Shown here: positions 21,062 to 40,690 of the stretch, piece by piece | Layout: the number at the start of each line of letters is the position of its first letter | How positions within the stretch are numbered: position 1 is the first letter of the stretch | NCBI GenBank assembly: GCA_030680175.1 | Contig: JAUXWO010000032.1 | Location: forward strand, 1-58,955 | Length of the DNA stretch: 58,955 nucleotides | Source: Vicinamibacterales bacterium | GTDB lineage: Bacteria > Acidobacteriota > Vicinamibacteria > Vicinamibacterales > UBA2999 | Direction of reading: 5' to 3' | Notes under the pieces: model-generated | What the model was told of the DNA's origin: nothing | What the model saw: the letters and a program-made list of their open reading frames with translations, nothing else | Database searches by the model: none | Translations under genes and position numbers: made by a program

Positions 21062-23959
21062 TCAGGGCGCGCCGGCGAGGCGCGTCCTGACATCCTCCTG
21101 CCAGTGCAGGACGAACACAAGCTCGGCCGGCGCCGGCGCCGCCGACGGCACGTCGCGGATCACCAGGAACCGGCGCCCATCCGGCGACGCGGCGTAGGCC
21201 AATCCGAGCCGCCCGCCCAGACCGCGTGGCTCGACGAGCGTCGTCGACCGGCCCGCCCGGAACGTCGAGCCTGGCAGAATCGGCGTCGCCACGATGCGCG
21301 CGCCGTCGTAGTGGAAGAGCTCCCGTCCATCGGCGCGCCAGCGCGGCGAGGTGCCGCCGCCCACCGAGACCTGCCAGCGGCCCGCCTCGACGTCCGGGTA
21401 CGGACGCACGTAGACCTCGAACTGGCCGGACTCGTCGGACTGATACGCGAGCCAGCGGCCGTCGGGCGACACGTGCGGATCGAGTTGCGCGAAGTCGCCG
21501 TCGAGCAGCACGCGCACCGTCGGATCCGGCGGTGTGACGCTCGCGATCGCCTGGCTGCGGAAGCTGCGGAACACTGCCAGCAGCAGCGTCCGTCCATCGG
21601 GCGTCCAGGAGTACGGGCTGTGAATCGGTCCGTCCGTGGTCGTCAGGCGCTCGATCGGCCCGGCGCCCTGCGCGTCGCGACGGAACACGCCGGGGCCCTC
21701 GCGCTCGGACCGGAAGGCGACGGCGCTCCCGTCCGGCATCCAGACCGGCATCGTCTCGATGGTCGGATCGACGGTGAGCCGGCTCAGCGTGCCGCGCGCC
21801 GGATCGCCGATCCACACGTCCGTGTTGGCGCCCTCCTCGACGGCCAGCGCGACGCGCGATCCGTCGGGCGACAGCGCCACGCGCGTGTAGGCGCGCGCAT
21901 CGAGCGCCACCGGCGTCTCGCCGCCGGTGCGGTCCAGCCAGACGAGCCGGCGGGACGCCACCACCTCCCGCGCGCGCATGTACACGAGCGCGCCTGCCGG
22001 GGCGACGTCGTAGTGGACGATGGTGTTGTCGCTGTGGGCGAGGCCGGTGGCCAGCGGCACGGGCTCGCCCGCGACCTCGGCGCGCGCCGGGTCGAACCGG
22101 ATGCCCCACAGCGTGTCCTCGCGCCAGAACACGAGGAACCCGCCCGCCAGGTAGCGCCCATGCGTCCCCGTGACGAGCACGCGTGACTCGCGCGTGGTCA
22201 GGTCCAGCACCGCCACGCGGCGCGTCGCGCCGCTGACGATCGTGTAGAGCACGTGCCGCGCCCCCGGCAATACGTGCGGGAGGACGTGCAGCGTGTCTCC
22301 GCGTTCGGCGTCGAGCGCCGTGAGCGCCTCCGGCGTGCCGCCGGCCACCGGCACGCGCTGCAGCACGCGGCCCGTATTGGTCGCGAAGACGATCGCGTCA
22401 TCGTCGGCCCAACTGGCCGTGGCGTTCCCCGGCGCCGGCGCAATGGCAACCGGCGGACCGCCCGCCATGGGCACCCGCATCAGCACGCCGTCGCGGTCGA
22501 AGCCGAGCCAGCGGCCGTCGGGCGAGAAGAAGAGGCCCGTGGCCTGCTCGGTCCCCGGAATCGGCACGGCCTCGAGCGAGGACAGGTCGCGCCGGTAGAG
22601 CTGCGCCCGTCCGTCCCGCAGCGCGCGGAACACCAGCGTGCGGCCGTCGGGCGAGAGCGCCGGCATCGGCTGGAACGTCAGGGCCGGCTCGAGCCCCTCG
22701 GGCAGCGGAATCACGAAGCGGGCGACCCCCTCCTCCGAGCGCGGGGGCGCGGCGTTCCACCATCCCCCGGCGACGGCCCCGAGGACCAGCGCCGCGGCCA
22801 CCGCGGCGATCCCGCGCCACGGTGCGGGCCGCGGCAGGTCGCCCGGCTCGAGCGCATCCTCGACGACCGCATCGTCGAGTTCAAGGCGCGCGTCCCCGAT
22901 GTACCCGAGCCGCCGGCGCGGATCCTTGTCGAGGCAGCGGCGCAGCAGGCGGCGCACGGCGCGGGGCGTGTCGGGCGGGAGCAGGCCGAACGCGGGCTCG
23001 CGTTCGATCACGCGGGCGAGGACTTCGGCGGGCGTCGCGCCCGTGAACGCGCGGACACCGGTCAGCATCTCGAACAGCACGCAGCCGAACGCCCAGACAT
23101 CGGCGCGCTCGTCCACCGCGCGGCCGCGCGCCTGCTCCGGGCTCATGTAGGGGGCGGTGCCAAGCAGCACGGCGGGCGCGAGGCCGGTGATGTCGACCGG
23201 CACGACGTCACTGGCAGGGACGCCGGCCTCGGAGGCGAGCTTCGCGAGGCCGAAGTCGAGGACCTTCACGCCGCCGCCCGGCGGCAGCTTGATGTTCGCG
23301 GGCTTCAGGTCCCGATGCAGGATGCCGCGCGCGTGCGCGGCCTCGATCGCGTCGACGAGCTCGCGCGTGATTCGGAGGGCCTCGTCGAGCGGCAGGGCCT
23401 GGCCGCCGATGCGGTCGGCAAGCGTGGGCCCCTCGACGAACTCGAGCACGAGCGCCTCGAGGCCCTGGCTCTCGGCGATCCCGAAGATCGCGCCGATCCC
23501 GGGATGGCTCAGCGTGGCCAGCACCTGCGCCTCGCGACGGAAGCGGGCGAGGCGCACGGGGTCCTGCGCAAACCGGGCCGGCAGCACCTTGAGGGCCACG
23601 TCGCGCTGCAGGCGCGTGTCGCGCGCGCGGTAGACCTCGCCCATGCCCCCGCGTCCCACCAGGGCGAGGACTTCGTAGTGCTCGAACCTGGTGCCCGGCG
23701 CCAGTCCGGCCGGGACGTCCTCGCCGGCCCCGAGCGCGCGCGCGATCTCATCGCCGAGCGAGCCCGACAGCGCGCCACCCGGCGCGAGAAACCCGTCGTC
23801 TCTCGACGCTTCGGACAACACGGCCTCGAGCGCCGCGCGCAGCGCGGGGTCGGCGCCCGCCTCGGCGTCAAGGAACCGGCCACGCTCGGCGGCCGGCAGC
23901 GCCAGCGCGCGGTCGAGCAGGTCGTCGGCCTGGGGCCAGCGTGAGAGGTCCGGCCTCAC
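21062..23959 (-). CDS. Ser/Thr protein kinase with WD40-like/TolB propeller sensor
   Basis: 965 residues. An N-terminal helical region (1-90) is followed by a complete Hanks-type kinase: GRGGMGEVY (102-110), K124 in VALKVL, HRDLKPAN (catalytic D217), DFGLAK (D235) and GTAPYMSPEQARG. A single membrane segment (IAAVAAALVLGAVAGGWW, about 375-395) precedes an extracytoplasmic propeller with repeated PD40-type blades (MPALSPDGRTLVFRAL, VALSPDGSRVALAVEE, PHVSPDGRWLAYQSDE). This is the standard acidobacterial sensor kinase. GTG 23959 overlaps the sigma factor stop as GTGA, so kinase and sigma factor are made together. Confidence 0.95.
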   Translation of the reverse strand: MRPDLSRWPQADDLLDRALALPAAERGRFLDAEAGADPALRAALEAVLSEASRDDGFLAPGGALSGSLGDEIARALGAGEDVPAGLAPGTRFEHYEVLALVGRGGMGEVYRARDTRLQRDVALKVLPARFAQDPVRLARFRREAQVLATLSHPGIGAIFGIAESQGLEALVLEFVEGPTLADRIGGQALPLDEALRITRELVDAIEAAHARGILHRDLKPANIKLPPGGGVKVLDFGLAKLASEAGVPASDVVPVDITGLAPAVLLGTAPYMSPEQARGRAVDERADVWAFGCVLFEMLTGVRAFTGATPAEVLARVIEREPAFGLLPPDTPRAVRRLLRRCLDKDPRRRLGYIGDARLELDDAVVEDALEPGDLPRPAPWRGIAAVAAALVLGAVAGGWWNAAPPRSEEGVARFVIPLPEGLEPALTFQPMPALSPDGRTLVFRALRDGRAQLYRRDLSSLEAVPIPGTEQATGLFFSPDGRWLGFDRDGVLMRVPMAGGPPVAIAPAPGNATASWADDDAIVFATNTGRVLQRVPVAGGTPEALTALDAERGDTLHVLPHVLPGARHVLYTIVSGATRRVAVLDLTTRESRVLVTGTHGRYLAGGFLVFWREDTLWGIRFDPARAEVAGEPVPLATGLAHSDNTIVHYDVAPAGALVYMRAREVVASRRLVWLDRTGGETPVALDARAYTRVALSPDGSRVALAVEEGANTDVWIGDPARGTLSRLTVDPTIETMPVWMPDGSAVAFRSEREGPGVFRRDAQGAGPIERLTTTDGPIHSPYSWTPDGRTLLLAVFRSFRSQAIASVTPPDPTVRVLLDGDFAQLDPHVSPDGRWLAYQSDESGQFEVYVRPYPDVEAGRWQVSVGGGTSPRWRADGRELFHYDGARIVATPILPGSTFRAGRSTTLVEPRGLGGRLGLAYAASPDGRRFLVIRDVPSAAPAPAELVFVLHWQEDVRTRLAGAP

Positions 23960-24516
23960 GCGCCGCCTCCGAGCGCGTCACGCAGCCACGCGCGCGCCTT
24001 GTACCATTCGCGCTGCGCCGTGCGCACCGACACCTGCAGCGCCTCGGCGGTCTCCTCTTCCGACAACCCGGCGAAGTACCGGCACTCGACGACCCGGGCC
24101 AGCCGCGGGTCGAGGGCGGCCAGCGCCTGCAGGGCCTGATCGATCGCGATCACCTGATCGGCCTCGCGCGCGGCCAGGTCGGGGGCGTCCTCGAGGGGGA
24201 CGAGCACCTGGTCGCCGCCGCGCTTGAGCCGCGTGCGGCGACGGGCGTGGTCCACCACGATCTGCCGCATCGCGATGGCCGAGACCGCGAAGAAGTGCCC
24301 GCGGTCGCGCCAGCTGGCGCGCGACTGATCCACAAGGCGCAGGTAGACCTCGTGGACGAGGCCCGTCGTGTTCAGCGTGTCGTTCGGACGGCGCCGGCGC
24401 AGGTGGCCCCGCGCCATGCGACGGAGGTCCTGGTACACGAGCGGCACGAGGCGGTCGAGCGCGTCCGCCTGTCCATCCCCGTGCGCGGCCAGCAGGGCAG
24501 TGATGTCGGTCTGCAT
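23956..24516 (-). CDS. ECF-like RNA polymerase sigma factor, kinase-associated
   Basis: 186 residues with sigma-2 (LVPLVYQDLRRMARGHLRRR, then TGLVHEVYLRLVD) and sigma-4 (LDPRLARVVECRYFAGLSEEETAEAL plus the HTH VSVRTAQREWYKARAWL). It matches the ECF-like group found next to Ser/Thr kinases in Acidobacteria and Planctomycetes; control by phosphorylation from the adjacent kinase is plausible, as no anti-sigma gene is present. ATG 24516 is chosen because the sequence upstream lacks family similarity. The stop overlaps the kinase start. Confidence 0.92.
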   Translation of the reverse strand: MQTDITALLAAHGDGQADALDRLVPLVYQDLRRMARGHLRRRRPNDTLNTTGLVHEVYLRLVDQSRASWRDRGHFFAVSAIAMRQIVVDHARRRTRLKRGGDQVLVPLEDAPDLAAREADQVIAIDQALQALAALDPRLARVVECRYFAGLSEEETAEALQVSVRTAQREWYKARAWLRDALGGGA

Positions 24517-24645: not shown

Positions 24646-25377
24646 ATGACACACCCGCACGAGGAACCGGCGGCCCTGGCGGCGGCCGCGGAACGCCAGG
24701 CGGCCCTGCCCCCAGGACCGGGCGACCGCTTTGCGGGATACGGCGTGCTCGGCCTCGCGTTTCAGTCGGGCGATGTGCTGGCGCTCCGCCGCTTCCCCGC
24801 CACCTCCTGCGGCGCCGGCTACACCTCGATCTGGCACCAGTCGAGCGACGGGCGCTGGACGTTCTACTCCGATGTGCCGGTGACGGCCGGGTGCGTGCCG
24901 TACTTCGCGCCCGGCCTCACCGACACGATCGTGACGCCGATCCGCCTCGAGTGGCGGGGCACGCGGCGTCTGGCGATCGCGGCCGACGGCGGACGGCTCC
25001 TCGCCTGGTCGATGTGGTTCGCGCCGACGGCGCCGAGCGCCGCCATCAACGCGCTGCTCGGGGTGCTGCCGGAGGGCTGGTGGCGGCGCCGGCGCCTCCT
25101 GACGGCCGCCGGCGCCATGGCCGGACTGGCGCTCGGCGCGGGCCGGCTGCGCCTGACAGGCCACACCCCGTCGGGCCATCGCTTCGTCGCGGCGCCCGCG
25201 CGCGTCTGGACGGTCGCGGCGAGCCGCGCCACGGTCGCCGGCCGCGACCTGGGATCGACGGCGCCTCCGGCGCGCCACACCACGCTCGGCGATGTCGTGA
25301 TCCCGCGGCGTGGCCTGCTCGCGTTCGGCCAGTCGCTCATGCTGGCGCCTGGGGGGAAGGGCGTGGGTAGTGGGTAG
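24646..25377 (+). CDS. Protein of unknown function beside the kinase-LRR-globin gene
   Basis: 243 residues from ATG 24646, divergent from the sigma factor gene. No family is recognised. The sequence has coherent protein character (YTSIWHQSSDGRWTFYSD, CVPYFAPGLTDTIVTPIRLEWRG, ALLGVLPEGWWRRRRLL) and one weak hydrophobic stretch near 165 (TAAGAMAGLALGAG). Two cysteines (SCGAGY and AGCVPY) could pair or bind metal. The last residues (GKGVGSG) are encoded by the start of the heptamer array, so the array supplies the stop codon. It lies 47 bp before the kinase-LRR-globin gene on the same strand and may belong with it. Confidence 0.65.
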   Translation: MTHPHEEPAALAAAAERQAALPPGPGDRFAGYGVLGLAFQSGDVLALRRFPATSCGAGYTSIWHQSSDGRWTFYSDVPVTAGCVPYFAPGLTDTIVTPIRLEWRGTRRLAIAADGGRLLAWSMWFAPTAPSAAINALLGVLPEGWWRRRRLLTAAGAMAGLALGAGRLRLTGHTPSGHRFVAAPARVWTVAASRATVAGRDLGSTAPPARHTTLGDVVIPRRGLLAFGQSLMLAPGGKGVGSG

Positions 25378-25424: not shown

Positions 25425-28400
25425 ATGTGCCATTGCCCTGCGTGTAACGCCACCTTGCCCGACGAGGGCGCGTTCGAGTGCGGTGACTGCGGCGTGCGCC
25501 GGCCGTCGGCGGGCTGGCCGATCGACCGGCGGCTTGGTGCGACGGTGGTCGGTCATCAGTACCGCGTCCTGAGGCGGCTCGGCGCGGGCGGGTTCGGGAC
25601 GGTCTACCTCGTCGAGACGGTGGTGGGCGGGCTGAAGCGCGCGCTCAAGGTGCTGCACGCGCAGTGGGCCGCCGATGCGCAGGCGCGCGAGCGCTTCATC
25701 AACGAAGCCCTCGTCCTCGAGCAGCTGAATCATCCGAACATCACGCGCTGCTTTGCCGTGGGGACGCTCGACGACAGCGACGAGCTGTACCTGCTGCTCG
25801 AGTTCGTGGATGGCGTGCCGCTGTCTGTGGGGCTCGCCGAAGCGCGCGCGCATGGCCGCGCCTTCGACCCCCTGCGCGCGGTCCGGATCGCGAAGCAGAT
25901 GGCGTCAGGCCTGGTGCTGGTGCACCAGAACCGGATCCTGCACCGCGACCTCACGCCGCAGAACGTGCTGATCATCGGCGCAGGGACAGCGGCCGAGCAG
26001 GTCAAGCTCGTGGACTTCGGGATTGCGGACGCGCTCGATCCGGAGACGGTGTCGGCGCGGGCCGCGCTCGGGACGCCCGCCCACATGGCGCTCGAGCAGC
26101 TGCAGGGCGATGCGTCGCTCGACCGTCGTACGGATCTCTGGCAGCTCGGGGTCCTGCTCTACATGATGCTGACGGGCGCGCGTCCGTACGAGACGGACTC
26201 CCCGTCACTGGCCGGCCTGCTGGCACTGCACCAGCGGCACCTCGACGCGGGCCCGGCCCCCGGCATCGCGGCGAGCCCGGCGCTCGATGCGCTCGTCAGC
26301 CGACTGCTCGCCGGCGACCGCGCCCGCCGGCCGCACTCGGCCACGGCGGTCTGCGAGGAGCTGGCGCGCATCGAGCACACGCTGGACCCGGGGCAGGCGG
26401 TCGACGGCGCGCGCGCGCTGCTCGACGCCCTGTGCGCGCGCCCAGGCCAGGACGCGTGGTGGGCGGTCTGCCGCTACCTGGCGTCGCAGCCCGATCCCGC
26501 GCGGCTCGTGCCGGCCGCCGATGGCCTGCTGGCCGGATGGCCCGATGAGCTGCGCCGTGCGCCGCTCGCGTGGTGGGAGCGGGTGCGCCGCGGCGAGGAC
26601 CATCCCCTCTGGGGGCTCGCGCGCCGCCTCGACCTGTCGGGCCGGGCGCTCGATGATGACGCGGCGGCGGAACTGGCGAACCAGGCCGCGCTCGGGACGC
26701 TGACGGAGCTGGCCCTCGGCGACAACCAGATCGGCGCGGCCGGTATGGCCGCGCTCGCCGCATCGCCGCATCTGAGCAGCCTGCGCACGCTCGACCTCGC
26801 CGACAACCGGCTCGGCGCCGCCGGCGCCGCGTCCCTGGCGCAAAGCCCATCGCTCGGGTGCCTCACCTCGATCACGCTGGCCGGCAACGGCCTCGGCCCG
26901 CAGGGCGCGGAGGCGCTCGCACGCGGCCAGCTGCGGCCCTGCCATCTCGACCTGTCCGGCAACGATGTGCAGGCCGCCGGGGTGGCGGCGCTGGCCGCGA
27001 GTCCCGCCATGGTCCGGGTCGAGCGCCTCGTGCTGCGCGACAACGCCATCGGATCGGACGGCATCAGTGCCGTCGCGGTCTCGCGTACGCTGACGTCGCT
27101 CCGCGATCTCGACGTGAGCCACAACGGCATCGGCACGGCGGGGGCCGCCTCGCTGGCGCTGGCCGCCCATATGACCGGCCTGGTGCGCCTGTCGCTGGCA
27201 CGCAACACGCTCGGCCTCGAGGGCGTGGAGCTGCTGCTCGCCTCGAACCGCTTCCCGGCCCTCGAGGCGCTGGACCTCGCCTCGAACGACATCGGCGCGC
27301 AGGGCGCCATGACGCTCGCGTCCTCGCCGTTCACCCGGCGGCTGAAGGCCCTCGACGTGACGGACAACGCCCTCGGCGACGCCGGCCTGGCCGCCCTGCT
27401 GGGCGCGCCGTACCTGACGCGCCTGCGCGCGCTCGGCCTGGCGCAGAACGGCGTGACGGCGGCGGGCGTCACGCTGCTCGGCGGCGCGCCCCCGGAACTG
27501 GCCTCGCTCGACCTGTCCGCGAATCCCCTCGGCCATCCGGGCGCCGTGGCGCTCGCGGCGGTGCTCCCCCGGCTGCGTCTGACGGCGCTCCGTCTGAACG
27601 ACTGCGCGTTGAACGCCGAGGCCCTGGCGGCGGTGCTGGCGGCGCTGCCCCCGCCGCTCGTGGATCTGGAGGTGGCGGGGAACGCGTTCGCCTCCGCGGA
27701 GATGGCGCGCACCGGCCGCGCGGACCCTCCAGCCGTCCTCGAGCGCCTCGACGTCTCCCGCAATGCCCTCGGCGCGGGCGGCCTCGCGACGCTGCTGGCC
27801 TGCCGGTCGCTCCGTCACCTGCGCACGCTCGTCGCCGACTCCAACCGCCTTGGCGACGACCAGGGACCGCGGGCGGTCGACGCAATCGCGGGGCTCACGT
27901 CGATCGAGGTTCTCCAACTGCGCGACAACGGGCTGGGCGCGGCCACCGTCACGGCGCTGGCCGGCTCGGTCGCGGCCGCGCGGCTGTCGGCCCTGGACCT
28001 CGGCTTCAATCAGCTCGGTGATGCCGGGGCCTCCGCGCTCGCCCGTGCCACGGCGTGGCCCGCGCTCGGCACGCTCAACCTCGAGCAGAACGGCATCGGC
28101 CTGGCCGCGGCGGCGACGGTGCTCTCGTCACCCGGGCTGCCGCTGCTCCACCGCGCCGGCTTCGCGCGCAACGCCATCGGCGGGCTCATCGATCTCCACA
28201 GCCTGTCGCGCCGGACGATCGACCTGCTCGAGGCGAGCTTCGCGCGGATGGCCCCCCACGCCGCCGCCATGGCCGAGGACTTCTACGCGCGGCTGTTCTC
28301 CCGGTATCCGTCCATCAAGCCGCTCTTCGCGAGAACGTCGATGCGGCGCCAGCAGCACCACCTGATCGCCGCGCTCACGCTGGTCATCGACCACCTGCGA

Positions 28401-28640
28401 GCCCCCGACCAGGCCGACGCGCAGCTGCGGCTGCTCGGCGAGCGGCACGCCGGGTACCACGTGCATCCGTCGCACTACCACGCCGTGACCGGCGTCCTGC
28501 TCGACGCGATTCGCACCGCCATGGGCGACGGCTGGACCGAGGAACTGGAGAATGCCTGGCACGACGGCCTCGAGGCGGTCGCGAACATCATGATGGCGGG
28601 GCAGCAGATAGATAGATCACGAAATCTGGTGATGTCGTGA
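25425..28640 (+). CDS. Zinc ribbon-Ser/Thr kinase-leucine-rich repeat-globin fusion
   Basis: 1071 residues, no membrane segment, probably cytoplasmic. (1) Residues 1-25: zinc ribbon, C4/C7 and C19/C22. (2) About 45-320: Hanks kinase with GAGGFGTVY, K75, HRDLTPQN (D175), DFG (D197) and TDLWQLGVLLYMMLTG; the usual Lys after HRDL is Thr. (3) About 425-920: some 19 repeats of the RNase-inhibitor LRR type (for example LRTLDLADNRLG, LERLDVSRNALG). (4) About 924-1065: globin. DFYARLF supplies a B10-type Tyr (Y954), Q976 or Q977 fits distal E7, and ERHAGYHVHP supplies the proximal His (H1008), mirroring Y29, Q53 and H85 of flavohaemoglobin from memory. A haem-based O2 or NO sensor controlling phosphorylation is inferred. 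In-frame TGA precedes ATG 25425; no Shine-Dalgarno is evident. Confidence 0.92.
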   Translation: MCHCPACNATLPDEGAFECGDCGVRRPSAGWPIDRRLGATVVGHQYRVLRRLGAGGFGTVYLVETVVGGLKRALKVLHAQWAADAQARERFINEALVLEQLNHPNITRCFAVGTLDDSDELYLLLEFVDGVPLSVGLAEARAHGRAFDPLRAVRIAKQMASGLVLVHQNRILHRDLTPQNVLIIGAGTAAEQVKLVDFGIADALDPETVSARAALGTPAHMALEQLQGDASLDRRTDLWQLGVLLYMMLTGARPYETDSPSLAGLLALHQRHLDAGPAPGIAASPALDALVSRLLAGDRARRPHSATAVCEELARIEHTLDPGQAVDGARALLDALCARPGQDAWWAVCRYLASQPDPARLVPAADGLLAGWPDELRRAPLAWWERVRRGEDHPLWGLARRLDLSGRALDDDAAAELANQAALGTLTELALGDNQIGAAGMAALAASPHLSSLRTLDLADNRLGAAGAASLAQSPSLGCLTSITLAGNGLGPQGAEALARGQLRPCHLDLSGNDVQAAGVAALAASPAMVRVERLVLRDNAIGSDGISAVAVSRTLTSLRDLDVSHNGIGTAGAASLALAAHMTGLVRLSLARNTLGLEGVELLLASNRFPALEALDLASNDIGAQGAMTLASSPFTRRLKALDVTDNALGDAGLAALLGAPYLTRLRALGLAQNGVTAAGVTLLGGAPPELASLDLSANPLGHPGAVALAAVLPRLRLTALRLNDCALNAEALAAVLAALPPPLVDLEVAGNAFASAEMARTGRADPPAVLERLDVSRNALGAGGLATLLACRSLRHLRTLVADSNRLGDDQGPRAVDAIAGLTSIEVLQLRDNGLGAATVTALAGSVAAARLSALDLGFNQLGDAGASALARATAWPALGTLNLEQNGIGLAAAATVLSSPGLPLLHRAGFARNAIGGLIDLHSLSRRTIDLLEASFARMAPHAAAMAEDFYARLFSRYPSIKPLFARTSMRRQQHHLIAALTLVIDHLRAPDQADAQLRLLGERHAGYHVHPSHYHAVTGVLLDAIRTAMGDGWTEELENAWHDGLEAVANIMMAGQQIDRSRNLVMS

Positions 28641-28748: not shown

Positions 28749-30785
28749 TCAACGTGACGGCAGCCTGAGCGCGACCAGCTCGGCGTGGCTTTGCGCGCTG
28801 GCGATGGCCGCGACGATGTACTGCTGGCCTGCGTGCATGAAGGTCATGGGCGCGGTGTTGGTCTGCGCCGGGAGCTGGATCTTCGCCAGTTCCTGGCCCG
28901 TCCGCTTGTCGAGCGCGCGGAGGTAGCGGTCGCCGCCGCGGCCCTCGCCGTACATCAGCAGCGACTTCGTCACGAGCAGGTTCGCGTGCGAGTTCTGCCC
29001 GGTGTTGCCGATCTCCACGCCCTTGAGCGCCGGGTGGTTGCGGATGCGATCCGGCGTCTCACCGTTCGGGATGTTCCACTTCAGGTCGCCGGTGTTCATG
29101 TCGTAGGCGACGATGCGCCCGTAGGGGGGCTTCATCAGCGGCAGCGGCGGGTTGCCCGCGCCGCCCGAGGGGCCGGGCGCCGGGCTCGACGTCGACACGT
29201 AGAGCGACGTGATCTTGCCGTCGGGGCTGCCCCACCCCGGCCACGGCTTGCCGTCCGGGTACTTCTCCTGCGCCGGCACCAGTGCCAGGACCTCGTAGCC
29301 GTGCTGCGACGCCACGTAGACGTAGCCGGTCTCGGGATCCACGGCCGCGCCGCCCGGGATGTTCGCGCCGCCGTTGGAGCTGGGCGCCATGAACGCGCCG
29401 CGCGTGCCGTCGGGCGCGTTGAAGAGCGACGGAGGATTGAACATGCCCGCGCGCATCCGGAACTGGCGCGCGATCTTCACCGCCTCGGCGCGCAGCGCCG
29501 GCGTGAAGTCGATCAGGTCGTCCTCCGTCACGCCCTGCTGCTCGAACGGCGGCGGCCAGGTCACATGCGGCTGCGTCGGCCAGAGCTTCTCGTGGGGCAC
29601 GTCCGAGGCGGGCACGGGGCGCTCCTCGATGGGCCAGATCGGCTCGCCGGTCTCTCGGTTGAAGACGAACATCCACCCCTGCTTGGTCGCCTGCACGATC
29701 GCCGGCACCGCGCGCCCGTTCACCGTGAGGTCCATCAGGTGCGGCGCGTCCGGGATGTCGTGATTCCACACATCGTGGTGGACGAACTGGTAGAACCAGC
29801 GCAGCTTGCCGGTCTGCACGTCGAGGGCGAGCAGGCTCGTGCCGTACAGGTTCATGCCGTGGCGGCTGCCCCCGTAGTAGTCGTTGGTGGGCGTGTCCGT
29901 GGGCACGTAGACGAGCCCGAGCCTGGAATCCGCCGAGAGCGGCGCCCACGGCGACACATTGCCCGTATACCGCCACGATTCGTTCTCCCACGTCTCGTTG
30001 CCCGGTTCGCCTTCCTTGGGCACCGGATCGAACCGCCAGAGCATGCGGCCGGTCTTCGCATCGTACCCGCGGATGATGCCGGGCACGTTCTCGCGGTTCT
30101 CGGGGTAGTACCCGCGGTCGTGCGAATTGCCCACCACCACCACGCCATTGACGACGATGGGGGCGGAGGACGAGGTGATGTCGCCCCAGTCGAGCGTGCC
30201 GCGATCGGGATCCACCGAATAGGCGCCCAGTCCCAGGTGCAGATCGATGACGCCGTTCATGCCGAACTGCGGCAGCGGCTGCCCCGTATCCGCATCAAGC
30301 GCCCAGAGGTAGAAGCCCGGGGTGAGCAGGTAGATCACCGGGCGGCCGTCCACGCGGGCGAATGCCACGCCCTTGCCGTAGTTCTGGCGCGTCGAGGCGG
30401 CCCACCGCGGGTTGTCCTTCTCCCGGAACATCCAGAGCGTCTCGCCCGTGGCCGGGTCGATGCAGACGACGGTGCGCCGCTGCCCGGCGACGGTGTAGAG
30501 CTTGCCGTTCACGTACAGCGGCGTGGCGCGGTAGATGAGATCCGGCTCCGGCCCGTAGTTGTTGGCCTTCCACCGCCACGCCACCTCGAGCTGGCTGAAG
30601 TTGGCCGCCGTCACCTGGTCGAGCGGCGAGTACCGGCTGCTGCGCTCGTCGCCGCCCCAGTGCGTCCACTCGACGGTGCCGCTCGCACTGCCCTCGGCCG
30701 GCGGCTGCGAGTCCGCCTGGCCACGGGTGCTGCCGACCACCGCCACTGCGACCACCAACGCCACTGCCACTACAACCTGTCTCAT
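28749..30785 (-). CDS. PQQ-dependent dehydrogenase (glucose/alcohol dehydrogenase type)
   Basis: 678 residues. Signal peptide (VVVAVALVVAVAVVGS) then an eight-bladed propeller opening with EWTHWGGDERSSRYSPLDQV, the usual start of membrane-type glucose dehydrogenase-like quinoproteins. WFYQFVHHDVWNHDIPDAPHLMDL is the conserved PQQ/metal-site block, followed by KQGWMFVFNRETGEPIWPIEE. No CxxCH haem domain is present, so electrons must leave through another carrier. The substrate (sugar or alcohol) is not decided by sequence. GAGG lies five bases before the ATG. The gene is flanked by inverted copies of one short-repeat family. Confidence 0.93.
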   Translation of the reverse strand: MRQVVVAVALVVAVAVVGSTRGQADSQPPAEGSASGTVEWTHWGGDERSSRYSPLDQVTAANFSQLEVAWRWKANNYGPEPDLIYRATPLYVNGKLYTVAGQRRTVVCIDPATGETLWMFREKDNPRWAASTRQNYGKGVAFARVDGRPVIYLLTPGFYLWALDADTGQPLPQFGMNGVIDLHLGLGAYSVDPDRGTLDWGDITSSSAPIVVNGVVVVGNSHDRGYYPENRENVPGIIRGYDAKTGRMLWRFDPVPKEGEPGNETWENESWRYTGNVSPWAPLSADSRLGLVYVPTDTPTNDYYGGSRHGMNLYGTSLLALDVQTGKLRWFYQFVHHDVWNHDIPDAPHLMDLTVNGRAVPAIVQATKQGWMFVFNRETGEPIWPIEERPVPASDVPHEKLWPTQPHVTWPPPFEQQGVTEDDLIDFTPALRAEAVKIARQFRMRAGMFNPPSLFNAPDGTRGAFMAPSSNGGANIPGGAAVDPETGYVYVASQHGYEVLALVPAQEKYPDGKPWPGWGSPDGKITSLYVSTSSPAPGPSGGAGNPPLPLMKPPYGRIVAYDMNTGDLKWNIPNGETPDRIRNHPALKGVEIGNTGQNSHANLLVTKSLLMYGEGRGGDRYLRALDKRTGQELAKIQLPAQTNTAPMTFMHAGQQYIVAAIASAQSHAELVALRLPSR

Positions 30786-35909: not shown

Positions 35910-38231
35910 TTACCGTGCCGGTACGGTCCGTCCGCTCAGGACGCCGCCGGCCTCCGTGGCCACCGTCGACGGCTCGTAGCTCCAGCCGAGCCAGAGCCCC
36001 GCCATGAACCAGGTGAAGTGCGCCACGCCGACGAGGAAGATGACGTCGCCCAGCATGCGCATCCAGCGCAGCGTGATGATTAGGTCCTGCTGGAGGAAGT
36101 CGGCGCTGCGCGCGTACCACATCCCGTGCTCGATGCTCGCCAGCGCCTGCATCACGCCGATCGGCAGCAGGCTGAGGCCGACCATCAGTGCCAGGCCTCC
36201 ATTGAGGCTCCAGAACGCGATCCCGAGCGTGCGCTCCCGCCACGCGCGCTCGCCGGTCGTCACGCGCGCGATGACGAGGATCAGTGCGAGGCTCAGCAAC
36301 CCGTAGACGCCGAAGAGCGCGGTGTGCGCGTGCACGGGCGTCGTGTTGAGCCCCTGCATGTAGTAGAGCGCGATCGGCGGGTTGATCAGGAACCCGAACA
36401 GCCCGGCGCCGACGAGGTTCCAGAACGCCACGCCGACGAGGAACCGGATCGGCCAGCGGTACTTCCGCATCCACGGCGCCGCCTGCTGCAGGCGGCTGGT
36501 GTGGAACGCCTCGAGGCCGATGAGCACGAGCGGCACCACTTCGAGCGCACTGAAGGCCGCGCCGATCGCCATGATCGAGGTGGGCGTGCCGCTGAAGTAC
36601 AGATGGTGGAACGTGCCGGGGATGCCCGCGAAGAGGAACAGCGTGCTCGAGGCGATCACGGCGGCCCCGGCATGGTGCCGGTGCACGAGGCCCATCTTCG
36701 CGAAGAGGATCGCCGCGGCGGCCGTGGCGAACACCTCGAAGAAGCCCTCGACCCAGAGGTGCACCACCCACCAGCGCCAGTACTCCATCACCGTCAGGTG
36801 CGTGCGCGCCGAGAAGAAGAAGCCCGCGCCGTACATCAGGCCCACCGCCACGGTGGCGCCCGTGAACATCCACACGAGCGACTGCGATTCGTCACGCCGC
36901 TGCAGCGCGGGCCACAGCGCGCGCAGCATCAGCAGCAGCCAGAGCGTCAGGCCGGTGAAGAGCCCGATCTGCCAGGCGCGGCCGAGGTCCAGGTACTCAT
37001 AGCCCTGGTGCCCGAACCAGAACCCGGCCTCGAGGCTCAGGTGCTGCTGAATCGAGAACCACTGCCCCGCCAGCGACCCCGTCACGACGAGCAGCAGCGC
37101 GACGAACAGGACATTCACGCCGAGGCGCTGGAACCGCGGCTCGGCGCCGCCGATGACCGGCGCGAGGAACAGCCCCGCCGCCAGGAAGGCGGTGGCGATC
37201 CAGAACATCGCCGTCTGGATGTGCCAGGTCCGCGTCAGGCTGTAGGGCAGGTACTCGGCGAGCGGGAACCCGAAGAAGGCCTGGCCTTCGACGGTGTAGT
37301 GCGCCGTCACGGCGCCGAGCGTCACCTGCACACAGAAGAGCGCGACGACCACCGCGACGTACTTGCCCACCGCCCGCATCGACGGCGTCAGCGCCACGAC
37401 GCGGAACGGATCGCTCGCCGGCGGCGTCACCGCGGGCTCCTCCCGCGTACGGAACGCGTACCACCAGACCAGCGCGCCCACGCCGGCCAGCAGCAGCACG
37501 ACGCTCACGATGGACCACAGCACGTTCGCCGCGGTCGGCACGTTGTTGATGAGCGGCTCGTGCGGCCAGTTGTTCGTGTAGGTGACCGACATCCCAGGGC
37601 GATTGGTCGACGCCGCCCAACTGGTCCAGAAGAAGAACGCCGTCAGCGCGCGGCGGCGGCCGTCATCCGGCACGACGACGTCGTGCATCGCGTAGGACTC
37701 GCGCAGCGAGGCCAGGCCGGCCGCACCGCCGTACAGGCCGTCGTAGTGCGCGGCCGTCTCGGCCATCGCCGCCGCGCGATCCTCGGACACGACGACGGTG
37801 CCGGTGCCGGGGTCGAAGGTGTTGGTGCGGAACTCCCCCTTCAGCCGCTCCCGCAGCGCGGCCTGGCGCTCCGGCACGAGCGCCGCGTAGGACACGCCGT
37901 CCTCCCGCACCGCCCAGCGCTCGAGCAGGGCCAGCGCTTCGCGGTGCAGCCAGTCGGCCGACCAGTCCGGCGCCTGATACGCGCCGTGGCCCCAGACCGA
38001 CCCGAGCTGCTGCCCGCCGGTCGACTGCCAGACCTGCTGGCCGGTCAGGATGTCGTCCTCGGTCATCAGGAGCGTGCCGCCGGTCGTCACGACGCGATCG
38101 GGAATGGGCGGCGCCTGGCGATACACCTCGCGGCCGAAGAACCCGAGGATGAAGAAGGCGGCAAACAGGCTCAGGCCAAGCAGCCACCAGAGGGGGCGAT
38201 GGGGAACGAGCGGGGTCGTGTCGCGGGTCAT
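35910..38231 (-). CDS. norB: Quinol-dependent nitric oxide reductase (qNOR)
   Basis: 773 residues, the usual length for single-subunit qNOR. It reduces two NO to N2O with quinol electrons in the inner membrane. An N-terminal cytochrome c-like extension without CxxCH (VWQSTGGQQLGSVWGHGAYQAPDWSADWL) marks the quinol type. Fourteen or so membrane segments follow, with metal-ligand blocks YWRWWVVHLWVEGFFEVF, GTFHHLYFSGTP and HAHTALFGVYG. GAGGA lies seven bases before the ATG. It is 64 bp downstream of ytfE on the same strand and divergent from norR, so the three form an NO-detoxification module. Confidence 0.96.
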   Translation of the reverse strand: MTRDTTPLVPHRPLWWLLGLSLFAAFFILGFFGREVYRQAPPIPDRVVTTGGTLLMTEDDILTGQQVWQSTGGQQLGSVWGHGAYQAPDWSADWLHREALALLERWAVREDGVSYAALVPERQAALRERLKGEFRTNTFDPGTGTVVVSEDRAAAMAETAAHYDGLYGGAAGLASLRESYAMHDVVVPDDGRRRALTAFFFWTSWAASTNRPGMSVTYTNNWPHEPLINNVPTAANVLWSIVSVVLLLAGVGALVWWYAFRTREEPAVTPPASDPFRVVALTPSMRAVGKYVAVVVALFCVQVTLGAVTAHYTVEGQAFFGFPLAEYLPYSLTRTWHIQTAMFWIATAFLAAGLFLAPVIGGAEPRFQRLGVNVLFVALLLVVTGSLAGQWFSIQQHLSLEAGFWFGHQGYEYLDLGRAWQIGLFTGLTLWLLLMLRALWPALQRRDESQSLVWMFTGATVAVGLMYGAGFFFSARTHLTVMEYWRWWVVHLWVEGFFEVFATAAAAILFAKMGLVHRHHAGAAVIASSTLFLFAGIPGTFHHLYFSGTPTSIMAIGAAFSALEVVPLVLIGLEAFHTSRLQQAAPWMRKYRWPIRFLVGVAFWNLVGAGLFGFLINPPIALYYMQGLNTTPVHAHTALFGVYGLLSLALILVIARVTTGERAWRERTLGIAFWSLNGGLALMVGLSLLPIGVMQALASIEHGMWYARSADFLQQDLIITLRWMRMLGDVIFLVGVAHFTWFMAGLWLGWSYEPSTVATEAGGVLSGRTVPAR

Positions 38232-38295: not shown

Positions 38296-38961
38296 TCAGG
38301 ACTCCGCGCGCAGCGCGCGCGGAAACAGGACGTGGTTCTCGAGGTGGATGTGCTCCATCAGCTCGGCCTCGAGCGCGTCGAGCCGGACGTACAACGCGCG
38401 CCACGTCGGACACGCCTCGGCCGGCGGCACGAAGTTGCCGGTGAGCGCGCGGGTGCGGGCGAGGTTGGCCGCGTGATCGTCGTGCTCGATCTCCATCTGC
38501 CGGATCGGGCCCGACGCCAGCGCCGCGCCGCCGGCGAGCAGCATCGGAAAGAGCACCTGCTCCTCTTTCGCCATGTGCGCGAAGGCGTGGTCGCCCGTCT
38601 CGATGAGGTGCGCGGCCAGGCCGTGCGGGCACGAGGGCTTGCTCCCGTGCCGGCTCTCGACGCGCTCGGCCAGCGCCACCAGCTCCGGCAGCTCCGCGCG
38701 CAGCCGTGCGTGGTAGACGGTGACGATGTGCTGGATGAGGTCGGGGAGGGGCCGCGCATCCCACCGCGTCCGATCACCGGCGGTCGCCGACTCGGCCTCG
38801 ATCTCCCGCACGAGGTCCTCCGCCGAGATCCCCTGCTCGTCGCAGACCTCGGCGAGGGGCCGGCGGCCGCCGCAGCAGAAGTCGAGTCCGTGCCGGTGGA
38901 AGACGCGCGAGGCGCCGGGGTGGGTGGTGGCCAGTTCCGCCAGGGTCATCGTCGCGTTCAT
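38296..38961 (-). CDS. ytfE: Iron-sulfur cluster repair di-iron protein (RIC/YtfE)
   Basis: 221 residues. The N-terminal DUF542 part holds the conserved Cys pair FCCGG (C29, C30). The C-terminal hemerythrin-like bundle supplies His and Glu ligands for a di-iron site (IQHIVTVYHARLR, AHMAKEEQVLFPML, EIEHDDHAANL, MEHIHLENHVLFP). It repairs iron-sulfur clusters damaged by nitric oxide. AAGGAG lies six bases before the ATG. A sigma-54 promoter match about 60 bp upstream, together with divergent norR, indicates NO-induced expression of ytfE and norB. Confidence 0.95.
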   Translation of the reverse strand: MNATMTLAELATTHPGASRVFHRHGLDFCCGGRRPLAEVCDEQGISAEDLVREIEAESATAGDRTRWDARPLPDLIQHIVTVYHARLRAELPELVALAERVESRHGSKPSCPHGLAAHLIETGDHAFAHMAKEEQVLFPMLLAGGAALASGPIRQMEIEHDDHAANLARTRALTGNFVPPAEACPTWRALYVRLDALEAELMEHIHLENHVLFPRALRAES

Positions 38962-39121: not shown

Positions 39122-40690
39122 ATGAATCATGAACATTCGTCGCTTGAACCGCTCCTCGACATCGCCCGGGATCTCACGGCCTCGCTGGCCGCCGACAACC
39201 GCTATGCGCGGCTGCTCGGCGCCGTCCGGCGCTTGCTCCCGTGCGATGCCGCGTGCCTGCTCCGGCTCGAGGGCGATGACCTCGTCCCCGTCGCGGCGCA
39301 CGGGCTGACGCCGGCGGCCCTCGCGCGGCGCTACCCGCGGCGTGAGCATCCGCGGCTCGATGTGATCCTGCGTTCGGCCGACCCCGTACGCTTCCCGCCC
39401 GACAGCACGCTGCCCGATCCGTTCGACGGGCTCGTCGCCGGGGCCGGCGCGCCCTTGACCGATCACATCCACGCCTGCCTCGGCTGCCGGCTGACGGAAG
39501 GCGGCGAGGTGGTCGGCGCGCTCACCGCCGATGCGTTCGAGCCGCACGCCTTCGACGCGCTCGATCCGCAGATGCTCGCCACACTCGGCGCGCTCGCGGG
39601 CGCGGCAATGCGGACGACCTCCCTCATCGAATCGCTCGAACGCCAGGCCGATCACCGCGGCCGCGTGGCGCGCGACCTGCAGCAGACGGCCGCGGCGTCG
39701 AGCGGCGGCCAGCTGCTCGGCTCGAGTGCGGCGCTCAGCCGCCTGCGCGACGAGATCCGCCTGGTGGCGGCCTCGGACCTCGCGGTCCTGCTGACCGGCG
39801 AGACGGGGGTCGGCAAGGAACTGGTCGCGCACCAGATCCACGCGGCCTCCCCGCGGCACGACGAGGCCCTGATCCAGGTCAACTGCGCGGCGCTGCCCGT
39901 GTCGATCGCCGAGAGCGAGCTGTTCGGGCACATCACCGGGGCGTTCACCGGCGCCACACGCGATCGCGCGGGCAAGTTCGAGGTCGCGAGCGGGGGGACG
40001 CTCTTCCTCGACGAGATCGGGGAGCTGCCGCTCGAACTGCAGCCCAAGCTGCTGCGCGCGCTGCAGCAGGGCGAGATTCAGCGCGTCGGCAGCGACCGCG
40101 TCCACCGCGTGGACGTGCGGATCCTGGCCGCGACCAACCGCGACCTCTCGCGCGAGGTCGGCGCCGGGCGCTTCCGCGCCGACCTCTATCACCGGCTCGC
40201 CGTCTTCCCGATGCGCGTGCCGTCGCTCGCCGATCGCCGCGCGGACATTCCGGCGCTGGCCGCGCACTTCGCCGACCTGAACCGCCGGCGGCTCGGCCTC
40301 GGCAGCGTGCGCTTCACCGACGAGGCCCTCGCCGAGCTCACCGGCGCCGACTGGCCGGGCAACGTGCGCGAGCTCGAGAACGTCGTTTCGCGCGCGGTCC
40401 TGCGCGCGGCCGCGGGCCAGCCGCCGCATGCGCCCGTCACGATCGGCCTCGCGCACCTCGACGTGGTCGCGCGCGTCGCGCCGGCCCGCGCCCCGGAGGC
40501 CGCCCTCGAGACGCCGCCGCGCGCCGCTGCGCCGCTGCGCGAGCAGGTGGACGCCTTTCAACGGCAGCGCATCCTCGACGCGGTGACGGCACACGACGGC
40601 AACTGGGCCGCCGCGGCACGCGCCCTCGGCATGCACCGCAGCAACCTCCACCAACTGGCAGGGCGGCTGGAGATCAGAAAGCCGCGCTGA
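39122..40690 (+). CDS. norR: NO-responsive sigma-54 activator NorR
   Basis: 522 residues. The N-terminal GAF domain carries residues matching the NO-sensing iron site of E. coli NorR from memory: R78 and R84 (HPRLDVILR), D99 and D102 (LPDPFDGL). The AAA+ domain has Walker A GETGVGKE, the sigma-54 contact loop GAFTGA (273-278), Walker B GTLFLDEIGEL and the arginine-finger region. The C-terminal Fis-type HTH is NWAAAARALGMHRSNLHQL. It senses NO and activates the divergent ytfE-norB operon. No Shine-Dalgarno is seen before the ATG. Confidence 0.95.
   Translation: MNHEHSSLEPLLDIARDLTASLAADNRYARLLGAVRRLLPCDAACLLRLEGDDLVPVAAHGLTPAALARRYPRREHPRLDVILRSADPVRFPPDSTLPDPFDGLVAGAGAPLTDHIHACLGCRLTEGGEVVGALTADAFEPHAFDALDPQMLATLGALAGAAMRTTSLIESLERQADHRGRVARDLQQTAAASSGGQLLGSSAALSRLRDEIRLVAASDLAVLLTGETGVGKELVAHQIHAASPRHDEALIQVNCAALPVSIAESELFGHITGAFTGATRDRAGKFEVASGGTLFLDEIGELPLELQPKLLRALQQGEIQRVGSDRVHRVDVRILAATNRDLSREVGAGRFRADLYHRLAVFPMRVPSLADRRADIPALAAHFADLNRRRLGLGSVRFTDEALAELTGADWPGNVRELENVVSRAVLRAAAGQPPHAPVTIGLAHLDVVARVAPARAPEAALETPPRAAAPLREQVDAFQRQRILDAVTAHDGNWAAAARALGMHRSNLHQLAGRLEIRKPR

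Follow-up and report, generated by a model that had tools for sequence, protein, structure and literature searches.

A candidate gas-sensing kinase that joins leucine-rich repeats and a C-terminal globin, encoded beside a sigma factor gene in Vicinamibacterales

Gene and domain architecture

The window analysed here is a 58,955-nucleotide stretch of DNA from a Vicinamibacterales bacterium of the phylum Acidobacteriota (GenBank assembly GCA_030680175.1, contig JAUXWO010000032.1, positions 1 to 58,955). Our subject is a gene on its forward strand (25425..28640, +) that joins a Hanks-type Ser/Thr kinase, leucine-rich repeats (LRRs), and a globin in a single open frame of 1071 residues with an ATG start; we call the product the globin-LRR-kinase (GLRK). 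An initial annotation, made from the sequence alone, had placed these parts and an N-terminal zinc ribbon in one frame, and Pfam profiles and the invariant ribbon cysteines bear this description out. The G+C content at codon positions one, two, and three is 77%, 52%, and 92%, the pattern that genuine genes show in GC-rich DNA.

The protein begins with a zinc-ribbon-like CxxC-x11-CxxC motif (C4, C7, C19, and C22; 25425..25505, +). Its four cysteines are present in all three orthologues (the window protein and those of genomes G030 and G052, described below), and it presumably binds zinc. The kinase domain follows at residues 46-309 (25560..26351, +; Pfam Pkinase, E = 6.6e-41) and leads into a linker or LRR cap at residues 315-400 (26367..26624, +) that matches no Pfam family. 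Profile and structural model together assign 20 LRRs of the RNase-inhibitor type to residues 401-915 (26625..28169, +; LRR_6, E = 4.6e-41). The globin occupies residues 923-1060 (28191..28604, +); the Pfam Globin match (residues 952-1055, E = 3.3e-14) scores 53.8 bits with PF00042 against a cut-off of 22. Pfam gives no Protoglobin match in the frame up to E = 0.01 and no FAD/NAD reductase domain after the globin, which ends the protein.

Kyte-Doolittle hydropathy in 19-residue windows reaches its maximum inside the LRR part in each of the three orthologues (1.61, 1.43, and 1.85), and the G052 protein has one extra window above 1.6, at residue 281 within the kinase. By this measure no convincing transmembrane segment stands out in any of the three, in agreement with the earlier description of the protein as soluble.

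The globin domain

Searched against the PDB, the GLRK globin matches bacterial haemoglobins, best 3wfw (5.6e-15), the globin of a globin-Roadblock fusion, and 3s1i (8.5e-13), Hell's Gate globin I. An AlphaFold model of the domain, built from a 12-row alignment, has a mean predicted local distance difference test score (pLDDT) of 94.9 and a predicted template modelling score (pTM) of 0.87. In the PDB the structure that matches it best is O2-bound Hell's Gate globin I (3s1i), with a TM score, taken on the target, of 0.95 and a root-mean-square deviation of 0.9 Å, and the best 50 rows of the structure search are all globins or globin-containing proteins. The C-terminal part is thus predicted to fold as the globin that the initial annotation had supposed.

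The residues expected to line a haem pocket are strongly conserved. Y954, F968, Q976, and H1008, which we take to be helix positions B10, CD1, E7, and F8, are kept throughout the close globin alignment, whose 12 rows include the window's own and two that come from one protein. In a wider set of 31 rows, hand-picked from more numerous globin matches with the remainder left out, Tyr is kept in 30, Phe in 31, Gln in 26, and His in 30. The annotation had pointed to Y954, Q976 or Q977, and H1008 as a plausible haem site; the conservation of H1008, on which that proposal turned, holds in both sets, and Y954 and Q976 stand with it, but Q977 is not conserved.

This is the sole Pfam Globin of the window's genome (one match at E up to 1). 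Pairwise identity of the domain among the orthologues is 48-56%, comparable to that of the other parts of the protein, so the globin does not appear to be decaying. By its predicted fold and its pocket residues, the GLRK globin is of the F type, that is, of the flavohaemoglobin and single-domain lineage.

The kinase and the leucine-rich repeats

The GLRK kinase matches many kinases, the bacterial ones including PknB and StkP. The glycine loop and residues K75, E94, D175 (of HRD), N180, and D197 (of DFG) are invariant in the three orthologues. The best match of the LRR part is ribonuclease inhibitor (4.7e-22). A model of the full-length protein, for which three sequences served as input, shows a confident LRR coil of 20 strands from residue 401 to residue 912 with a spacing of ~27, in keeping with the strand-helix units of ~27-29 residues that mark RNase-inhibitor-type proteins, and a Foldseek search with this model places RNase inhibitors at the top. 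The RNase-inhibitor type of the repeats had been recognised before, and the earlier count of about 19 becomes 20 with the strands of the model. The globin of the full-length model is of moderate confidence and the kinase of poor confidence (pLDDT under 50 at residues 28-314). PADLOC matches concern kinase domains only and point to nothing specific.

Distribution and orthologues

Among 162 genomes of the order, the fusion occurs in three: the window's own, G030, and G052. The initial annotation had called for a search for other proteins with this domain order; the two orthologues have it, with 1077 and 1078 residues, each 53% identical to the window protein. By part, pairwise identities are 57-60% for the kinase, 54-64% for the linker, 50% for the LRRs, 48-56% for the globin, and 35-44% for the ribbon. 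A query with the linker (26391-26720) matches exactly the same three of the 162 genomes, which indicates that kinase, linker, LRRs, and globin go together. In the phylum the linker query matched two of 369 genomes, the window's own included; the other match (G441, 4.3e-4) we set aside as chance, the stretch reading by eye as an isoleucyl-tRNA synthetase gene.

Globins themselves are more widely spread. Matches were found in 8 of 59 genomes (own included) and in 13 of the 162 of the order, where those outside the three fusions lie in frames of 149 to 435 residues. In the phylum, an alignment search gave matches in 29 of 396 genomes at E up to 1e-8 (best nine candidates per genome at most) and the Pfam family in 27 of 369. 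Two long globin frames considered as kinases (G504 and G494) were rejected; they read by eye as a globin with a surface or secreted protein after it, perhaps run-on frames. Among 155 plasmid records with globin matches, the 60 listed, some of them unannotated, carry no kinase annotation.

We also scanned 84,980 species genomes with two peptide patterns, a search that reaches close relatives only. Of the 99 stretches that matched, 10 loci were confirmed: the two known orthologues, four globin-PAS-chemoreceptors, one tandem globin-pentapeptide protein, and three single-domain globins (L029, L030, and L031). None of these 10 is a new kinase-LRR-globin protein from outside the order, within the reach of the patterns. 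The four chemoreceptors (L024, L025, L026, and L027; from SAR324, Kineobactrum, and other proteobacterial records) carry an F-type globin, not the usual sensor type, at the N terminus of a PAS-MCP protein, an assignment made by Pfam for three and by eye for L026. The tandem protein, from Microcoleus (L028:9482-11398), has two globins in succession and then pentapeptide repeats.

A second family of globin kinases

Five further proteins of the same phylum combine a kinase and a globin in another way. They consist of a kinase, a 2Fe-2S ferredoxin, a further region, and a globin, with Pfam Pkinase, Fer2, and Globin in all five; two are encoded in G491, two in G571, and one in G544 (L074, L075, L090, L091, and L092 in all). 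The further region looks cyclase-like, with a Pfam nucleotide cyclase match in two of the five and a score above the cut-off in one (L091). The pocket residues Tyr, Phe, Gln, and His are retained in the globins of these proteins.

In a tree of the 31 globins, the three GLRK globins form one clade (support 100/99) apart from these five, and this clade is nested among chemoreceptor, cyanobacterial, and single-domain globins in a 13-member group (92/93, unstarred). A single clade of all eight kinase globins is rejected by an approximately unbiased (AU) test carried out after the tree was seen (p-AU 0.011), and a tree of 14 kinases likewise separates GLRK from the five. Because both trees and the AU test agree in this separation, the coupling of kinase and globin seems to have arisen twice.

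Neighbouring genes

Upstream of the GLRK gene and divergent from it lie two genes on the reverse strand. The nearer encodes a sigma factor of the extracytoplasmic function (ECF) type (23956..24516, -; PF07638 / TIGR02999, 213 bits with TIGR02999 against a cut-off of 126), whose start codon we assigned by choice. The farther encodes a second Ser/Thr kinase with a PD40 propeller, found by Pfam, and a hydropathy candidate for a transmembrane segment near residue 383 (21062..23959, -). The two frames overlap by 4 bases (23956-23959), which suggests translational coupling. A pair of ECF sigma factor and second Hanks kinase is divergent from the GLRK gene in all three genomes (the PD40 propeller being seen in the window's), with identities of 61-63% for the sigma factor and 47% for the PD40 kinase. 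The sigma factor gene is nearest to GLRK in the window and the kinase gene is nearest in G030 and G052. When the order was searched with the PD40 region, the kinases of these loci were the best matches within G030 and G052 and ranked behind only those of G114 and G040, in a ranking that scored the best eight candidates per genome and is not exhaustive.

Between the pair and GLRK is a frame of 243 residues (24646-25377, +) that ends 47 bases before GLRK; Pfam gives no match for it in a scan made on the longer frame. The divergent genes leave no room for a counterpart at the G030 and G052 loci.

Ordinary ECF sigma factors carry the residues DAED in region sigma2.2. With the register set by eye on DxxDxxQE, the corresponding motif is NTTG in the window and NTTA and DTTA at the other GLRK loci, and it is DTAG and DTTG in G114 and G040. 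A precedent for such a threonine motif exists in EcfP of Vibrio parahaemolyticus, which has STTA for DAED; its report describes phosphorylation of the second Thr by the kinase PknT, which provides charge for binding to RNA polymerase, and allows that other kinase-associated ECF groups may work otherwise (PMC8999054). The phosphorylation model for the sigma2.2 Thr appears, with limits, in a second report also (PMC13147305).

On the other side of GLRK, a nitric oxide (NO) response module comprises a qNorB-type NO reductase (35910..38231, -; PF22085, 7.5e-70; COX1, 2.5e-57), the di-iron repair protein RIC/YtfE (38296..38961, -; TIGR03652, 223.1 bits, cut-off 204.7), and the sigma-54-dependent NO regulator NorR (39122..40690, +; NF003451, 664.2 bits, cut-off 476). 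The module that the initial annotation had placed about 7 kb away is real and starts 7270 bases after the GLRK gene. In G052 the counterparts of NorR, RIC, and qNorB (70%, 61%, and 76% identical) adjoin GLRK, NorR standing tail to tail with it at a distance of 49 bases. The window genome and G052 each have a single RIC match. The link between GLRK and the module is thus seen in two of the three genomes, which belong to two families, and may reflect either function or inherited linkage.

Convergent with GLRK is a gene for a pyrroloquinoline quinone (PQQ)-dependent dehydrogenase (28749-30785, -; PF01011, 2.7e-180); BLAST finds no match to it in the stretches around the G030 and G052 loci.

Interpretation

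We propose that GLRK is a cytoplasmic haem-based gas-sensor kinase that feeds an ECF sigma factor, and put the probability of this reading at somewhat under 60%. The C-terminal globin would hold haem through H1008 and place Y954 and Q976 on its distal side. When a diatomic gas (NO or O2) binds, the globin would pack differently against the end of the coil of LRRs, and the changed packing would alter the activity of the N-terminal kinase or lead the LRRs to present a substrate differently. The kinase would then phosphorylate the sigma2.2 Thr of the adjacent ECF factor, at the place where acidic residues normally contact RNA polymerase, and so switch the sigma factor on, and the PD40 kinase would be a second, envelope-side input into the same sigma factor. 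The initial annotation had supposed that ligation of O2, NO, or CO alters the LRR scaffold and thereby the kinase; as a whole, that interpretation is partly supported.

The sensor part of the proposal gains support from the company that the globin keeps, since its nearest relatives include the N termini of PAS-MCP receptors and since a second family joins globins to kinases. For the output, the sigma factor and second kinase beside GLRK, both of which the initial annotation had passed over, are suggestive, and the Thr motif together with the precedent of EcfP and the ECF43 type leads us to propose the sigma factor as a likely GLRK substrate, activated by phosphorylation.

Several observations weigh against this reading. 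G114 and G040 have the pair of ECF factor and PD40 kinase without a globin kinase, so the pair does not need one. The sigma2.2 motif still opens with an acidic D in three of the five sequences (one GLRK locus, G114, and G040), and PMC13147305 reports that the T51A variant of EcfK is functional, the sigma2.2 Thr alone being dispensable and a second site lying in the linker. BLAST with the ECF, PD40-kinase, and NO proteins of the window finds no ECF or NO gene in the 8-11 kb around the genes of the five ferredoxin-type kinases. Of the 31 hand-chosen globins, no more than 26 retain the distal Gln. Within GLRK, the APE motif of the window kinase reads ALE, and the catalytic-loop motif HRDLKPxN has Thr in place of its Lys in the window and G052 but keeps Lys in G030. 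The full-length model, with a pTM of 0.55, is poor for the kinase and gives no guide to how the domains pack. Finally, the two RIC matches of G030 are both on contigs other than that of GLRK.

This last point bears on the identity of the ligand. We somewhat favour NO, because of the NorR-RIC-qNor neighbourhood, with O2 a close second because of the type of pocket. A distinct possibility, to which we give less than even odds, is that the globin senses O2 or redox state and that the NO genes lie nearby only incidentally, with an otherwise unchanged mechanism. In favour of this view, Hell's Gate globin I, whose structure was solved with O2 bound, has a distal Tyr/Gln pair that aligns with the GLRK pair, and in one genome of three the RIC matches are on other contigs; against it, a second genome, from a different family, has the NO module directly adjoining GLRK.

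It is rather unlikely that the kinase is weak or dead and that GLRK acts as a gas-dependent scaffold, its LRRs binding a partner such as the PD40 kinase or the sigma factor and its globin modulating the contact. The HRDLTPQN loop of two of the three proteins would agree with this, as would the long LRR coil, 50% identical among the orthologues, but the five catalytic residues are invariant in all three, the kinase is among the best-kept parts of the protein, and G030 has an ordinary HRDLKPEN.

We consider it improbable that the globin is an enzyme or NO scavenger, in the manner of an NO dioxygenase, tethered to a signalling scaffold without control of the kinase. It shares its lineage with flavohaemoglobin and the single-domain NO dioxygenases, and the NO module is near GLRK in two of three genomes. 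However, GLRK has no reductase domain, and at the position aligned with the catalytic H-helix Glu of flavohaemoglobins two of its three orthologous forms have Ala, the remaining one having Glu. Misassembly or a chance run-on of adjacent genes, conceivable in a draft genome of 143 contigs, is ruled out for practical purposes by the two orthologues, which have the identical frame and domain order in separate assemblies at 53% protein identity.

The gas-sensor kinase that we favour is probably a sensor of a kind not described before. If the reading is true, GLRK would add a new output class to the globin sensors, one in which the globin acts through an LRR coil on a eukaryotic-type kinase. To our knowledge, the signals that reach the Hanks kinases of ECF-kinase pairs are mostly unknown, and a member with an identifiable small ligand would be useful. 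The locus also points to its probable target, a sigma factor whose motif could be phosphorylated, so that the idea could be tested with three purified proteins. Taken further, globin-coupled Ser/Thr kinases might be a real, twice-invented class of bacterial gas sensors, with NO or O2 on a C-terminal globin here causing a Hanks kinase to phosphorylate an otherwise inactive ECF factor, a direct route from gas to sigma factor. We advance this wider idea tentatively and regard it as somewhat doubtful.

Comparison with known systems

The initial annotation was aware of no globin-LRR-Ser/Thr kinase, and our search of the literature on globins with Ser/Thr kinases or LRRs, in which some terms were narrow and which most subscription papers fell outside, turned up no description of such a protein. 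We know of no system in which globin sensing, a Hanks kinase, and ECF phosphorylation are wired together.

Single parts of GLRK have clear counterparts. Its closest solved relatives, Hell's Gate globin I (3s1i) and the globin-Roadblock/LC7 protein (3wfw), align with it in the proximal His and the distal Tyr/Gln, but have neither kinase nor LRRs. In flavohaemoglobin a reductase domain follows the globin, and GLRK lacks such a domain. RNase inhibitor and NLR-type LRR proteins share the RNase-inhibitor type of solenoid with GLRK but contain no globin.

The outputs of known bacterial globin sensors are histidine kinases, cyclases, phosphodiesterases, or chemoreceptors. In a 2006 census, chimeric globins fall into two groups, the flavohaemoglobins and the globin-coupled sensors, the globin generally standing at the N terminus; in the latter group it is of a lineage of its own (PMC1457004), unlike the C-terminal globin of GLRK, which belongs to the flavohaemoglobin and single-domain lineage. 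Globin-coupled sensors such as the histidine kinase AfGcHK, in which O2 binding raises autophosphorylation (PMC8697598), resemble the proposed GLRK mechanism in that a single protein carries both the haem globin and the kinase output. The output of GLRK differs from theirs, being a Hanks Ser/Thr kinase with LRRs.

The haem-regulated eIF2alpha kinase (HRI) is, as we propose for GLRK, a haem-controlled Ser/Thr kinase, but it is eukaryotic and is not known to contain LRRs. Its N-terminal haem domain has been called globin-like; the same census did not recognise it as a globin and left the matter to a structure (PMC1457004).

For the output, the nearest parallels are the ECF43 pairs EcfP-PknT and EcfK-PknS, which, like the locus described here, combine a sigma factor that lacks the full DAED and has Thr in sigma2.2 with a Hanks kinase encoded alongside. 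The sigma factor in the window is assigned only as TIGR02999 / PF07638, and its locus differs from those pairs in having two kinases, one of which carries a globin.

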